Shown one piece after another: positions 3,255 through 21,086 of a stretch of 29,643 bases of DNA; the first letter of the stretch is position 1, and every line of letters starts with the position of its first letter. A program made the translations under genes and the position numbers. The stretch is from the IMG/VR virus record IMGVR_UViG_3300027749_000381, positions 1-29,643 of that record, one strand, 5' to 3'. The notes beneath the pieces were generated by a model. That model did not search any database. It worked only from the letters and a program-made list of their open reading frames with translations, and was not told where the DNA came from. Source of the stretch: a virus.

Positions 3255-3485
3255 ATGACGGCTTTAGTATGGAGCAAAGATAACTGCCCTTATTGCGACC
3301 AGGCAAAATCATTGCTTACGCAAAAAGGCATTGCATTTGAAGAACGTAAGATAGGTCAGGGTTGGACTAGGGAACAGTTATTAGAATCAGTACCAACCGC
3401 AAGAACTGTACCACAGATATATCTAAATGGAGAATATGTGGGCGGATATACAGAATTGAAAGCAAAGTTTGATAAACAAGGATAA
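3255..3485 (+). CDS. Glutaredoxin
   Basis: Small thiol-disulfide oxidoreductase of 76 residues, the usual length for phage and bacterial glutaredoxins. It shows the dithiol site CPYC (Cys11, Cys14), the cis-Pro motif TVP (51-53) and the glutathione-binding GGY near residue 64. A strong Shine-Dalgarno (AAGGAG) precedes the ATG. Lying directly behind nrdB, it most likely supplies electrons to the NrdA C-terminal cysteines using host glutathione. The fold call is secure; the physiological partner is inferred from position. Confidence 0.95.
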   Translation: MTALVWSKDNCPYCDQAKSLLTQKGIAFEERKIGQGWTREQLLESVPTARTVPQIYLNGEYVGGYTELKAKFDKQG

Positions 3486-4058: not shown

Positions 4059-5449
4059 GCAGTACTAGCAATCAAAGTCCGTTGGGAGTCAATATAGTAA
4101 GTTCCTTATTGCAAAGTCAAGGTTTTACTATTAATCCAACTGCGGCAGGCTTAATGGGGTCAAGCACAACCAATGCAGCATATACGCCGGGAAGTATAGT
4201 AAATGATACTTGCTTATATTGGGTGACTTACGCAATCAATGCAGCATACCAACAGCTTGGTGTGCAAGTTTCTGATGCTACTTATAATAATTTAATATCG
4301 ATTGGGACTAACACTATTCCGGCGTTAGGTAATTCGTTGCCTCCCACTTATGGGGGCGAGATACTTAAAGTAGCAACTCCGACGTTTAGTCCTGATAGCG
4401 GAACCTATAGCTCAACACAATCAGTCACTATATCTACCTTAACCCCAGGAGCGTCCATTTATTATACAACAGACGGAAGTGTGCCCTCAAGTGCTTCTAC
4501 TTTATATACTACACCAGTTAGCATTAGTGTAAACACTACAATAAAAGCAATTGCTGAAGAAGTTGGGTATGTTAATAGTGATATAGGAACTGCAAATTAT
4601 GTGATTTCATCACCGGTAGTATATTCTGCAAGATACCTAGTTGTTGGTGGCGGAGGGGGAACTAGTTTTGCTGCAGGTGGAGGAGGAGCCGGCGGTTTCT
4701 TAGACAGCACAATTACCTTAGATTCTGGAATAACGTATACAATTACGGTTGGTGATGGTGGACTCACTTATGGTAACGCAAGTAGCAATGGGCAATGCTC
4801 TTCAATAATAGGCGGATCTGTCTCTATCATTGCTATTGGTGGAGGGGCATCGCGTGTCGGAGCCAGTGGGAATGCCGGTGGGTCAGGTGGCGGAGGAGGA
4901 GAGAATTACTCCGTAGGACAAATACATGCCGGTGGAACCGGAACACTCGGTCAAGGATTTTGCGGAGGAATTACTCCCGGACTTCCAAACAGCCCGGCTG
5001 GTGGCGGCGGAGGCGCAGGTGCTGTGGGAGGCAATGGTAGTGCAATTTATGGTGGTAGTGGCGGCGACGGTGGTATAGGATTGCCAAGCGATATTATCAC
5101 TACCGCACAAGCAACTTCTGCTAGTGTAGGACAGGTAGTTACTACGAATGTTTACTATGCAGGTGGAGGAGGAGCATCGGCTTACGGTGCCTATGGTGGA
5201 CAGGGCGGCCTTGGTGGCGGAGGCGCCGGCGGAGCTGGATTAGGTGGAGTAGGATCTTCGGGCAGTCCTAATACAGGTGGCGGTGCGGGTAGTGCTAATG
5301 GTGTAGGTTATACGGGGGGATCGGGTGTAGTAATTCTTTCTGTTCCCACTGTTAGTTATTCAGGGATATATACGGGAACCCCAGTGATATCGGTAGACGG
5401 GGCTAATACTGCGATCATATTCAAGCAGAGTGGCTCGTACACGGCTTAA
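4055..5449 (+). CDS. Tail adhesin-like protein: chitobiase C-terminal domain plus glycine-rich domain
   Basis: A 464-residue protein with three parts. Residues 1-105 are a low-complexity Ser/Thr/Asn-rich head. Residues about 108-185 are a chitobiase/beta-hexosaminidase C-terminal-type domain (FSPDSGTYSSTQSVTIST, then IYYTTDGSVPS, then TTIKAIA), an Ig-like fold frequent in exported and phage proteins. From about 195 to 430 the chain is very glycine-rich, with runs such as GGGGAGG and GGAGGAG separated by short variable loops. This resembles the polyglycine-II sandwich of phage S16-type receptor-binding tips, where the loops between Gly runs contact the receptor. The gene overlaps PAAR by 4 nt. 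The domain calls are firm; the role in host recognition is inferred. Confidence 0.8.
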   Translation: MSSTSNQSPLGVNIVSSLLQSQGFTINPTAAGLMGSSTTNAAYTPGSIVNDTCLYWVTYAINAAYQQLGVQVSDATYNNLISIGTNTIPALGNSLPPTYGGEILKVATPTFSPDSGTYSSTQSVTISTLTPGASIYYTTDGSVPSSASTLYTTPVSISVNTTIKAIAEEVGYVNSDIGTANYVISSPVVYSARYLVVGGGGGTSFAAGGGGAGGFLDSTITLDSGITYTITVGDGGLTYGNASSNGQCSSIIGGSVSIIAIGGGASRVGASGNAGGSGGGGGENYSVGQIHAGGTGTLGQGFCGGITPGLPNSPAGGGGGAGAVGGNGSAIYGGSGGDGGIGLPSDIITTAQATSASVGQVVTTNVYYAGGGGASAYGAYGGQGGLGGGGAGGAGLGGVGSSGSPNTGGGAGSANGVGYTGGSGVVILSVPTVSYSGIYTGTPVISVDGANTAIIFKQSGSYTA

Positions 5450-9660: not shown

Positions 9661-10200
9661 ATGAAGACCGTTGGTGATAGATTAGAAAGTTTTGTAATGA
9701 CAGGCGTGAAGCCTGGCCAGCCCGAAGATGCATTCTTTAAAATTGATGAGACTAGCTTTCCCGGTCAATGGAAAGTGATTGTGTATTATCCAAAAGACTT
9801 CACATTTGTTTGCCCCACAGAAATTGTAGCTTATGACAAGTTAAGTAAGGATTTTACCAACCGTAACGCAGTGTTGCTTACAGGGTCAACAGACAACGAG
9901 TTCTGTAAGATTGCTTGGCAGAAAGCACATATCGACTTGCAGAAAATTACTCATATACAGTTTGCTGATACTGCCCGTGATTCAACTAGTTTAGTCAATC
10001 AGCTTGGCATATTCTATTCACCGGCAGGAGCGGCGCTTAGAGCAACTTTTATCATTGATCCCGACAATGTTATTCAGCATGTTACTGTAAATAACCTAAG
10101 TGTTGGACGTAGTCCTGAAGAAACACTACGTGTTCTTGATGCAATTCAAACAGAAGAACTCTGCCCATGTAATCGTGGTATTGGCGGAGCAACACTTTAA
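9661..10200 (+). CDS. ahpC: 2-Cys peroxiredoxin (AhpC/Prx family)
   Basis: Thiol peroxidase that reduces hydrogen peroxide and organic hydroperoxides. It is 179 residues, close to the usual AhpC length. The active site PKDFTFVCPTEI gives Pro44, Thr48 and the peroxidatic Cys51 (PxxxTxxC). The resolving cysteine is Cys168 in EELCPCNRG, with an additional Cys170. An excellent Shine-Dalgarno (AAGGAG) lies 6 nt upstream. The stop overlaps the start of an AhpD-like gene (TAATG), reproducing the bacterial ahpC-ahpD operon, where AhpD recharges AhpC. This is unusual phage cargo, probably protecting the infected cell from oxidative stress. The family call is firm; recruitment from a bacterial host is inferred. 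Confidence 0.93.
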   Translation: MKTVGDRLESFVMTGVKPGQPEDAFFKIDETSFPGQWKVIVYYPKDFTFVCPTEIVAYDKLSKDFTNRNAVLLTGSTDNEFCKIAWQKAHIDLQKITHIQFADTARDSTSLVNQLGIFYSPAGAALRATFIIDPDNVIQHVTVNNLSVGRSPEETLRVLDAIQTEELCPCNRGIGGATL

Positions 10201-10721
10201 TGAATTGGATAGACATGATCAAAAACAGTATCCCAGATCATTCTACGGATATTAAATCAACTCTTGATAGTGTTATTAGTCATAGTGGGTTAGATGAAGT
10301 AGATGCCCATGCTTGCGCTTTGACTGCGGCGTTAAGTGCAAGCAACGGAGCTTTAGCATATCTAATTCAAAGTAGTGAAACATTAATAAATAAACCAGAA
10401 TGTGACGCAGCAAAAACTGCTGCATCACTTATGGGAATGACCAATGTCTATTATCCATTTGTTGAAATGACAGAAGATTTACAACTAGATGGGCTAGCAC
10501 CAGAGATGAATATGTTAGCATATGCTAATACTGCAGGGGTATCAAAGAAAAAGTTTGAAATGTATTCCTTGTGCGCCAGTATTGTCAATCAATGTGAGTT
10601 TAGCATTAGGTCACACTATTCTTCTTTAAAACAAACAGGAATGACCGTTACTGAGTTGCAATCAATTGGTAAAATTGCCGCTGTGATTAGTGCTATCGGT
10701 AAGGTAGCACCTCCGGGTTAA
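10200..10721 (+). CDS. ahpD: AhpD-like alkylhydroperoxidase, one catalytic Cys replaced
   Basis: A 173-residue AhpD/carboxymuconolactone decarboxylase-fold protein. It matches the mycobacterial AhpD layout throughout: MGMTNVYYPF, an APEMNMLAYAN stretch and KKKFEMYSLCASIVNQC. In that family Glu118, Cys130, Cys133 and His137 form the active site. Here Glu120, Cys132 and His139 are kept, but the position of the second Cys is Ser135 (C-E-F-S instead of C-x-x-C). The protein therefore cannot form the usual CXXC disulfide. It may work as a monothiol, use another Cys such as Cys125, or only bind AhpC. It is translationally coupled to ahpC by TAATG. A terminator-like hairpin follows. Confidence 0.82.
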   Translation: MNWIDMIKNSIPDHSTDIKSTLDSVISHSGLDEVDAHACALTAALSASNGALAYLIQSSETLINKPECDAAKTAASLMGMTNVYYPFVEMTEDLQLDGLAPEMNMLAYANTAGVSKKKFEMYSLCASIVNQCEFSIRSHYSSLKQTGMTVTELQSIGKIAAVISAIGKVAPPG

Positions 10722-10991: not shown

Positions 10992-11020
10992 TTGACTATT
11001 ACTCAAAAGACATATATACT
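10992..11020 (+). promoter_or_regulatory. Strong sigma70-type promoter before the structured RNA
   Basis: TTGACT at 10992-10997, a 17-nt spacer and TATACT at 11015-11020. Predicted start near 11027. There is no Shine-Dalgarno or ORF for more than 400 nt, so its main product appears to be the structured RNA at 11027-11440. Confidence 0.75.
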
Positions 11021-11026
11021 GTATCT

Positions 11027-11440
11027 ATAGTTTTAGAAAGTATATAAGTTTTGAGAGTCCGAAAACGAGGTGTTTAACCAACTACCAGACCATCGTGGGA
11101 AATCTACTCTACTGCAAACCAAGGGCTGTGGTGGCCGGCTAACAGTAGAGAGCGATAATGCTCTTAAACGGAAATGATGGTACTCTTAATCTACTGTTAA
11201 AGAACGTTCCGTTGTCAACGGATAGCGTGACCCGCGCGATAAGAAGTAGAGTGACATCTACGGGTGGTTTGAGAACAACGTAGCCTCCGCAAGGATGAAC
11301 GTCAATGGTCTCCAGTAGAAATACTGCCGTCGAACCTAACGGGCGTTAGCAACACGAAAGTCTCTCTGTGTTGAGAAGCGGGTGGAAGGTAAGAGATTGA
11401 GAGTCACTTACTACAATTACCGCCAGCAGAGGGAATGCAT
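11027..11440 (+). ncRNA. Candidate large structured non-coding RNA, about 400 nt
   Basis: A gene-free stretch behind a strong promoter, GC-richer than its surroundings and packed with complementary segments. Helices read by eye: A, 11107-11114 with 11143-11150 (8 bp); B, 11140-11149 with 11190-11199 (10 bp); C, 11167-11173 with 11207-11213 (7 bp), interleaved with B as a pseudoknot. A and B compete for the same bases. Hairpins: 11246-11261; 11313-11326 (5 bp closed by a GAAA tetraloop); 11336-11349; 11350-11373. TTGAGAGTC occurs near both ends (11051-11059, 11397-11405). It does not look like tmRNA, RNase P RNA or a group I intron. Phage tRNA regions are known hosts of GOLLD and ROOL RNAs; membership cannot be decided by eye. 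Confidence 0.6.
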
Positions 11441-11462: not shown

Positions 11463-11675
11463 ATGTCTAGAATATTGTCTGAACAACTGGAATACGTCTG
11501 TCAGCAACGTAATTTGACTTTGGCTAAGAACCATCTTAAAACAGTCAAAAATAAAAAAGATGTTACCGATGCAGAAATACAAACGGCTAAAGATAAATTA
11601 GAACGAGTAAAAATTAAAGCTAGCATCGCTACTGACGCACTACGACGAGCAGGACTTAGTAAAGGCGCAATGTAG
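11463..11675 (+). CDS. Small coiled-coil protein
   Basis: 70 residues. The frame is open upstream to a GTG at 11382, but AAGGAG ends 7 nt before the ATG at 11463, and the upstream part overlaps the structured RNA. It is a charged, almost entirely helical chain (EQLEYVCQQRNLTLAKNHL, then AEIQTAKDKLERVKIKAS) likely to form a coiled coil. No family is recognised. It would be read from the same strong promoter as the structured RNA unless a terminator separates them; none is obvious. Confidence 0.6.
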   Translation: MSRILSEQLEYVCQQRNLTLAKNHLKTVKNKKDVTDAEIQTAKDKLERVKIKASIATDALRRAGLSKGAM

Positions 11676-11728: not shown

Positions 11729-12361
11729 ATGAAAATCAGTCAAATCATCAACGAAGATGAGAAATCCAATCGGCTTAACCGTCGTGTGGTAAACAAGCAT
11801 CTCACTGACGCCGGATATCGTAAAATAGGTTCCGGTGGAGATTCCTTAGTCTACACTAAAGATAAGCAAAATGTAGTCAAAGTAATAGTTCCTAGATATG
11901 CTACACCTGCGCAGGCTGATAAGATTTATCAAAGTTGGTTAAGTTTTTGTGCAAAAGTTCAAAGAGGTAAATCTAATCCGCATTTACCAATGGTTACCCA
12001 ATTACCAAATCTTACAATTGACAATTTGGAATTCTCACAATACCAAATGCCTAAATATAGAGAAATTGACAAAATAGATTATGAAATAGTTGAACATATT
12101 CGTGATACTATAGTTAACGGATTAAATTATGAACAATATTTGCAAGAAATTGCCAGTAACCAATCAGATTATCCTTTAAGGGAAGTACAAATAGCAAAAA
12201 AATTAGAACCATTTTATAGAACGGCAACCGCAGTAATACAAATGTCTAAAAGACTAAATGTAATGAATGACTTTGGTTTAGCAAATGTTATGAAAGATAA
12301 TAACGGTGTTTATATAATAACCGATCCATGGGGAGTTCCATGGAGGGAAATAAACAAATGA
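11729..12361 (+). CDS. Protein kinase-like fold protein
   Basis: 210 residues with a reduced kinase/aminoglycoside-phosphotransferase pattern: a Gly-rich loop KIGSGGDSLVY (Gly34-Ser39), a strand VVKVIV with a candidate ATP-binding Lys51, a catalytic-loop-like NDFGLANVM (Asp181, Asn186) and ITDPW (Asp199) at the place of the DFG Asp. The chain ends soon after, so the C-lobe is minimal, a layout seen in small phage-encoded kinase-like proteins. Substrate unknown; protein phosphorylation is one possibility and an inactive scaffold another. It overlaps the next gene by 4 nt (ATGA). The start follows a late box by 5 nt without a Shine-Dalgarno. Confidence 0.6.
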   Translation: MKISQIINEDEKSNRLNRRVVNKHLTDAGYRKIGSGGDSLVYTKDKQNVVKVIVPRYATPAQADKIYQSWLSFCAKVQRGKSNPHLPMVTQLPNLTIDNLEFSQYQMPKYREIDKIDYEIVEHIRDTIVNGLNYEQYLQEIASNQSDYPLREVQIAKKLEPFYRTATAVIQMSKRLNVMNDFGLANVMKDNNGVYIITDPWGVPWREINK

Positions 12362-13026
12362 TTCGATATCTGATATTGGGTTTTATTTTCTTTGCTACTT
12401 CTGTCCGCTCTCAAGAATTATTTCAACTAAGTTTAAATGGATTACTTGTTCAAGGATCTGGCTCTACACTTAATGGTGCTGTCCAGTATGACGGTGTAGA
12501 AAATGTTTGGCAACAACATTATATAGGAGATTTCCTATATAAAAATACGAATGATTCACCAACTCATACTAATGCAGACATTGGTGTTAAACTAGATTAT
12601 AAACTAACTAATAGATACTACTTGCAAAGCGGGGTTAGGGGAGAATATGATAACCTTAGAGATGATCCATATTCAATCACCACAGAAGCCGGGATTGGGT
12701 ACAAATTCATACACACCAGCACGGTACGGTTAAGTGATGAATTAGGTTTGGGAACACACACAGATAAGCACGGTAGTTCTCCGATTGTTTCTAATAGTAT
12801 TTGGATTACTTGGAAAATTACAGGAAAATTAACATTTAGTAATAAACTGTTGATTGAACGGGGCTGGGGGGAAAATCATTTAGAAGATGATTACTATACT
12901 TCTAATATTACTGCTTTAGTTTATACGCTATCACCAAAAATAGATTTAAACGTTCAACAAAAGTATAAAAAAGAACGGACTGCTTATAGTAATATTACCC
13001 TGTTAGGCCTTGCATTGCATTTTTAA
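12358..13026 (+). CDS. Outer-membrane beta-barrel protein (DUF481/YdiY-like appearance)
   Basis: The frame is open from 12328, but the ATG at 12358 overlapping the kinase-like stop starts a clean signal peptide (MIRYLILGFIFFATSVRS, cleavage before Q). The mature chain of about 203 residues alternates strands and turns rich in aromatic and polar residues (LTNRYYLQSGVRGEYDNL, then SNSIWITWKITGKLTFSNK) and ends in LLGLALHF; a terminal Phe is the classic signal for the barrel-assembly machinery. The layout resembles salt-induced YdiY-type barrels. A phage-encoded outer-membrane protein could mask receptors or alter permeability; that role is inferred. Confidence 0.72.
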   Translation: MIRYLILGFIFFATSVRSQELFQLSLNGLLVQGSGSTLNGAVQYDGVENVWQQHYIGDFLYKNTNDSPTHTNADIGVKLDYKLTNRYYLQSGVRGEYDNLRDDPYSITTEAGIGYKFIHTSTVRLSDELGLGTHTDKHGSSPIVSNSIWITWKITGKLTFSNKLLIERGWGENHLEDDYYTSNITALVYTLSPKIDLNVQQKYKKERTAYSNITLLGLALHF

Positions 13027-13059: not shown

Positions 13060-13133
13060 GGGGGATTGATGTAATGGGAGCCTGGGACCTTTGCAAGGTC
13101 TTCGTGAGAGTTCGATTCTCTCATCCTCCACCA
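13060..13133 (+). tRNA. tRNA-Ala(UGC)
   Basis: Acceptor GGGGGAT pairs with ATCCTCC, the anticodon loop is TTTGCAA with UGC at 13092-13094, the T-loop is TTCGATT, and CCA is encoded. 74 nt. Confidence 0.93.
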
Positions 13134-13709: not shown

Positions 13710-13789
13710 AGATTATATCAAATAGAAGCAGTAATGGTTCTGCAGGTATTGGGATAAAAGTTAAACAGTATATCAATTAGGGAAATAGT

Positions 13790-20817: not shown

Positions 20818-21086
20818 GTAGACACACCAGACTTAGAGAAATTTGAGCTTCTATTAGGAAACTTTTAGAATGTAACTTGTCAAATTCGGTGAAAGCTTTA
20901 ACATGCTAATACCGAGCCAAGCCCGAAAGGGGAAGGTGTAGAGACTAGACGGCAAGGACCTAAAACGAAAGTAATGGTCAAGGTATAGTCCAGACTACAA
21001 ACAGTGCAAACTGGCAGTGAAAGCTGTAGTAGTAAGAAAATCTGACGCCGATAGGCATGCCGGTTCGAGTCCGGCTCCGGGCACCA
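20800..21086 (+). tRNA. tRNA-Leu(UAA) interrupted by a group I intron
   Basis: Exon 1 is 20800-20834, the intron 20835-21036, exon 2 21037-21086. Joined, the anticodon loop reads CTTAAAA (UAA) in a CAGA/TCTG stem, with a long variable arm (GCC-GATA-GGC), T-arm GCCGG-TTCGAGT-CCGGC, acceptor GCCCGAA with TCCGGGC (one A-C mismatch) and encoded CCA. The long variable arm is normal for Leu. The spliced tRNA is 85 nt. Confidence 0.9.
20835..21036 (+). ncRNA. Group I intron (202 nt) in the tRNA-Leu(UAA) anticodon
   Basis: The exon ends in U and the intron in G, as group I splicing needs. Core elements in order: GAGCCAAGCCC, a GAAA-capped P6-like stem, GTGTAGAGACTAGACGGC (R region), P8-like GACC/GGTC (20957-20960 with 20976-20979) and AAGGTATAGTCC (S region). 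P7 pairs GACTA (20943-20947) with TAGTC (20986-20990). The site between U34 and A35 and the core sequence match the known cyanobacterial and plastid tRNA-Leu(UAA) intron class (IC3). It has no internal ORF. Confidence 0.9.

Follow-up and report, generated by a model that had tools for sequence, protein, structure and literature searches.

A conserved two-domain structured RNA near tRNA genes in uncultured phage genomes

The window analyzed here is the whole of a 29,643-nucleotide stretch (positions 1 to 29,643) of IMG/VR virus record IMGVR_UViG_3300027749_000381; its relatives, referred to below by L numbers, point to a freshwater phage. Positions 9661 to 10721 hold a peroxiredoxin (AhpC/TSA) gene and then a carboxymuconolactone-decarboxylase family (AhpD-like) gene, which are kept in L086. 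A promoter-like sequence follows, as reported in the first-pass annotation; promoter-like sites are no commoner than in shuffles. The same two hexamers and spacing occur in L002 (positions 3257 to 3285), upstream of the open reading frame (ORF) preceding the RNA described below, and L086 has TTGACT-17-TAAACT at positions 2005 to 2033. Farther downstream lie a 70-amino-acid ORF without a Pfam or PHROG family, a match to PHROG 15752 (protein kinase, inhibitor of host transcription; positions 11729 to 12358; E value, 1.5e-10), a tRNA array starting at position 13060, and a group I intron (positions 20825 to 21010; 64 bits) in a tRNA region.

Between the promoter-like sequence and the 70-amino-acid ORF, positions 11049 to 11440 of the plus strand hold a conserved structured noncoding RNA of ∼390 nucleotides with two domains, as established by comparison of eight phage lineages. 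The lack of a convincing ORF over ∼400 nucleotides was confirmed, as positions 11027 to 11440 contain none of at least 50 amino acids. All frames are interrupted by stops in four homologues, and no reading frame is kept. The single-sequence minimum free energy of positions 11030 to 11440 is no better than that of shuffled sequence (z = −0.45), and structure was therefore judged by comparison, with covariation as the evidence.

At least seven other uncultured phage lineages in IMG/VR carry the RNA in whole or in part, duplicates being counted once (L017 with L002; L087, L093, and L094 with L086; and L089 with L090). L002 was reached through its relative of the 70-amino-acid gene (77% identity), and the DNA before that gene aligns with the RNA. 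L086 and L087 were reached through the gene at position 12364, and patterns from conserved blocks led to L089/L090, L091, L096, L217, and L218. Domain A homologues are present in L002, L086, L096, L217, and L218, and L086 conserves the RNA at both of its ends. No homologue of either domain was found by blastn in the cultured phages of the collection, where short matches were rejected as chance, tRNA or, in one search, probably hammerhead sequence. Matches to 16-mer DNA patterns from domain A were almost all chance coding sequence, and a looser pattern returned just chance-like matches of 16 to 24 bases from genome contigs. Nor was domain A present in 399 genomes from the order to which a Rhodoferax metagenome-assembled genome belongs, a negative result of little weight.

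The helices of domain A were read off the sequences, and the six available sequences align well. Standard pairs are formed in 99.4% of cells (28 named pairs), and 21 of the 28 pairs show two-sided changes. The covariation score of 0.726 was reached by none of 500 shuffles (shuffle score, 0.312), and slid partners gave at most 0.19. When stretches able to pair in every one of the six sequences were exhaustively enumerated, P1, P2, P3, and P5 came out on top by two-sided changes, and RNAalifold independently returned the domain A helices. Model R1 scores the window at 156 bits, the window being one of the model's own sequences. P3 is the 8-bp helix of the first-pass annotation and is conserved with compensatory changes: seven inner pairs were counted (positions 11108 to 11114 with 11143 to 11149), five of them with two-sided changes. 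The UAACCA motif may contact the UGGU loop of P4; both sides are invariant, which places it beyond covariation testing.

Domain B is supported by an independent model. R2, built from L002, L086, and L217, matches three sequences outside the model: the window (85.9 bits; E value, 9e-23), L090 (67.3 bits), and the cut-off L091 (25.1 bits). After trimming of long variable inserts, 94.6% of cells are paired (34 pairs, five sequences), with two-sided changes in 20 of the 34 pairs and a covariation score of 0.618 versus 0.291 in shuffles. Misalignment of the window in Q1 and of other sequences in Q4 lowers the paired fraction; exact strings were verified in the source DNA. RNAalifold agrees largely with the domain B helices. 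Sequence comparison thus shows both domains and most of their helices. The hairpin with a GAAA loop noted previously is present in a lineage-specific extension and has GCAA instead in the near relative L091.

Table 1. Features of the RNA locus and of related records
Feature	Record	Position	Strand	Remarks
Promoter-like TTGACT-17-TATACT	Window	10992-11020	+	Hexamers and spacing
Domain A (model R1)	Window	11049-11190	+	Closed by P1; homologues and covariation
P1 5′ strand UUGAGAGU	Window	11051-11058	+	Pairs with 11182-11189; covaries in L217, L218
P1 3′ strand	Window	11182-11189	+	Pairs with 11051-11058
P2 5′ strand ACCAUC	Window	11089-11094	+	Pairs with 11176-11181; two-sided changes in 5/6 pairs
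P2 3′ strand GAUGGU	Window	11176-11181	+	Pairs with 11089-11094
P3 5′ strand CUCUACUG	Window	11107-11114	+	Pairs with 11143-11150
P3 3′ strand CAGUAGAG	Window	11143-11150	+	Pairs with 11107-11114
P4 hairpin GGC-UGUGGUG-GCC	Window	11124-11136	+	Pairs 11124-11126/11134-11136; loop UGGU invariant
P5 hairpin GAGC/GCUC	Window	11150-11163	+	Pairs 11150-11153/11160-11163; two-sided changes in 4/4 pairs
A-B linker	Window	11191-11202	+	12 nt; 8 in L002, 2 in L217, 558 in L086
Domain B (model R2)	Window	11203-11438	+	Independent model match and covariation
Q1 hairpin UCCGU/ACGGA	Window	11208-11222	+	Domain B alignment; window misaligned, hand-checked
Q2 hairpin GCGU/GCGC	Window	11225-11237	+	C-rich loop; domain B alignment
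Q3 hairpin GUAG/CUAC	Window	11246-11261	+	Domain B alignment
Lineage-specific extension	Window	11266-11336	+	Closed by GGUUUGA/UCGAACC; sequence; contains GAAA-loop hairpin 11313-11326
Q5 hairpin CGU-UAGCAAC-ACG	Window	11344-11356	+	CGC/GCG in L217
Q6 5′ strand UCUCUCUG	Window	11361-11368	+	Pairs with 11427-11434; two-sided changes in 7/9 pairs
Q6 3′ strand CAGAGGGA	Window	11427-11434	+	Pairs with 11361-11368
Q7 5′ strand GCGG	Window	11378-11381	+	Pairs with 11420-11423
Q7 3′ strand CCGC	Window	11420-11423	+	Pairs with 11378-11381
70-amino-acid ORF	Window	11463-11675	+	Downstream; only IMG/VR relative in L002 (77% identity), also behind RNA
Hammerhead-like	L091	170-275		Just behind domain B
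Hammerhead-like	L086	2560-2640		Between A and B
Hammerhead-like	L096	5325-5275	−	∼1.8 kb from domain A
PD-(D/E)XK endonuclease	L096	6643-7035	−	Between domain A and tRNA-Ser

A single domain was found in four relatives. Whole-record model searches did not find domain B in L096 and L218 or domain A in L089, L090, and L091; the records of the relatives are fragments (L091 begins within domain B), and a domain may have diverged too far for the models. The two domains may therefore be separable, or one may have been lost or have escaped detection. Because searches of the L096, L218, and L090 records yielded one domain each, adjacency of the domains shows a single two-domain molecule in just four lineages, and in an exhaustive pairing search no A-B contacts covaried convincingly.

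The first-pass annotation had further proposed that positions 11140 to 11150 pair either upstream, in P3, or downstream, in a 10-bp helix (positions 11140 to 11149 with 11190 to 11199) interleaved with another helix in a pseudoknot, and that the alternation might control the small gene at position 11463. The 10-bp helix is present in the window, where a pairing run that long turns up in 0.1% of local shuffles, but it is absent in five homologues, whose longest runs in this region (4 to 7) are no better than shuffles. Neither the switch nor the pseudoknot, which depends on the downstream helix, is therefore conserved. The structured RNA itself stands more firmly than a reader of the single sequence could have known.

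The RNA often lies inside clusters of tRNA genes and otherwise within a few kilobases of such genes. In L217 a compact A+B unit sits between tRNA-Ala (ending at position 11187) and tRNA-Gln (starting at position 11621); in L218 domain A ends three bases before tRNA-Met; and in L090 domain B follows tRNA-Met without a gap and stops two bases short of tRNA-Thr. The RNA does not lie between tRNAs in the window, L002, or L086. The downstream neighbor varies among lineages: the 70-amino-acid ORF, a DUF481 gene, tRNA-Gln, tRNA-Thr, or a hammerhead.

This variation bears on the proposal of a cis-acting leader or riboswitch of the 70-amino-acid gene that toggles the two helices of positions 11140 to 11150. 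A ribosome-binding-like AAGGAG and an ATG do come after domain B, the same gene also lies behind the RNA in L002, and local chance is a poor explanation of the 10-bp alternative helix. Nevertheless, that helix is missing in the five homologues, and the gene is missing behind the RNA in L086, L217, L090, and L091, so that the single kind of downstream gene expected of a riboswitch or cis-acting leader is not seen. Control of the small gene is accordingly disfavored, and we regard a leader as improbable. In the explanation we prefer, positions 11049 to 11440 are a noncoding RNA gene rather than a riboswitch. Slightly easier to entertain, yet still unlikely, are structured spacers without a function in trans that would shield or punctuate the transcript of the tRNA array. 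Domains fitted tightly between tRNAs, and also occurring singly, would suit such spacers, but the invariant unpaired motifs CCGANNRCGAGG, UAACCA, and CGAAA are more than a mere spacer requires, and in three lineages the RNA is not between tRNAs at all.

GOLLD and ROOL are large structured phage RNAs found near tRNA genes that form RNA-only cages. The new RNA is likewise encoded in phage genomes near tRNA islands. Its two domains and variable linker (2 to 558 nucleotides) resemble the arrangement in GOLLD, and its ornate character and variable linker resemble ROOL; the linker of L086 has a possible tRNA-like stretch, at only 17.6 bits in Rfam. In GOLLD, the 5′ and 3′ domains are apart and the variable linker can hold tRNAs, whereas the 5′ and 3′ regions of ROOL intertwine (PMC12286853). 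Domains A and B, in contrast to ROOL, each close on themselves. At ∼390 nucleotides, the new RNA is only about half as long as many GOLLDs, which often exceed 800 nucleotides. It differs further in that domains A and B are equally well conserved and that the domains are also found singly. Across the eight records, the GOLLD model (RF02032) gave no match at an E value of ≤10, and the ROOL model (RF03087) gave just 8.8 bits, outside the RNA, in the record of L217. The suggested distant membership in GOLLD or ROOL thus finds no support in the sequence-structure models, although the architecture resembles that of GOLLD, and a very diverged member of either family is highly improbable. An unrecognized ribozyme or intron-like mobile element, with A and B as its core and the linker as the site of an endonuclease gene, is given equally little weight. 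The L096 ORF after domain A (PF11645, E value of 1e-18; PHROG 5018) encodes a PD-(D/E)XK endonuclease, of a kind known from group I introns, and the range of linker lengths would fit. However, group I and group II intron models do not match the RNA (the same Rfam library does detect the group I intron in the window), the insertion points show no interrupted gene, and the linker contains no ORF in the window, L002, or L217.

In Rfam searches at E values up to 10, nothing credible was returned for the window, L090, or L217, and L086 gave only a hammerhead and weak linker matches; those to FMN (23.6 bits) and COG2908 (13.6 bits) were not accepted as domain identities. With seven further lineages and strong covariation, the alternative suggestion of a new phage RNA fared well: sequence comparison supports a new family without a credible Rfam match, for which a putative function is proposed below. 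The reading we favor, at a probability of roughly 0.65, is a stand-alone noncoding RNA that would act in trans rather than as the leader of the small gene. It is favored over a leader or riboswitch by the differing downstream neighbors and by the location in tRNA arrays; against it, the window and L002 both keep the small gene directly behind the RNA. The ∼390-nucleotide RNA, with its two independently folded domains, would have its own promoter in the window and be cotranscribed with tRNAs elsewhere. Because the domains abut tRNA ends, tRNA-end processing could excise the RNA in tRNA arrays, and the mature RNA would then act in trans during infection.

Within the stand-alone, trans-acting reading, we tentatively prefer, by analogy with GOLLD and ROOL and at less than even odds, an RNA that would associate with itself into a scaffold or compartment for handling tRNAs or components of translation; the variable linker would be its cargo site. 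A bolder and unlikely reading is a new class of ornate phage RNA in which two autonomous domains, encoded together or apart, are matured by hammerhead cleavage and tRNA processing and assemble in trans, perhaps as a third family of RNA compartments besides GOLLD and ROOL. A further, smaller family that is unrelated to both, has the same genomic address, and may be split into two separable domains would help in comparing why phages retain such RNAs and would offer a tractable target for structure determination.

Type I hammerhead-like sequences occur in three relatives, within the RNA or the tRNA array or close by (Table 1), outside domains A and B; none was found in the window. These putative ribozymes consist of CUGAUGA, stem II, GAAA, and a downstream GUGUC-AGACA cleavage site, and AGACA pairs with UGUCU before CUGAUGA in a shared stem I, which is the type I layout. 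The three stems form in minimum-energy folds of the L091 and L086 candidates, the latter scoring 34 bits against an Rfam cutoff of 48.5 for the type III model. Hammerheads are already known in phage genomes (PMC3088659). In L086 and L096, the hammerhead-like sequence is followed by a shared CAGCGRGYGACCUURUGGUGUAGC, which is similar to a portion of the COG2908 RNA motif. A long near-perfect helix (CCAUAUUAAAACAUA/UAUGUUUUAAUAUGG) closes another possible structured element, located in L090 (positions 4233 to 4345, between tRNA-Glu and tRNA-Met), which is not domain A by R1. The tRNA array of L217 contains a COG2908 RNA (positions 13723 to 13767; RF02939; 70.7 bits), a family typed in Rfam as cis-regulatory.
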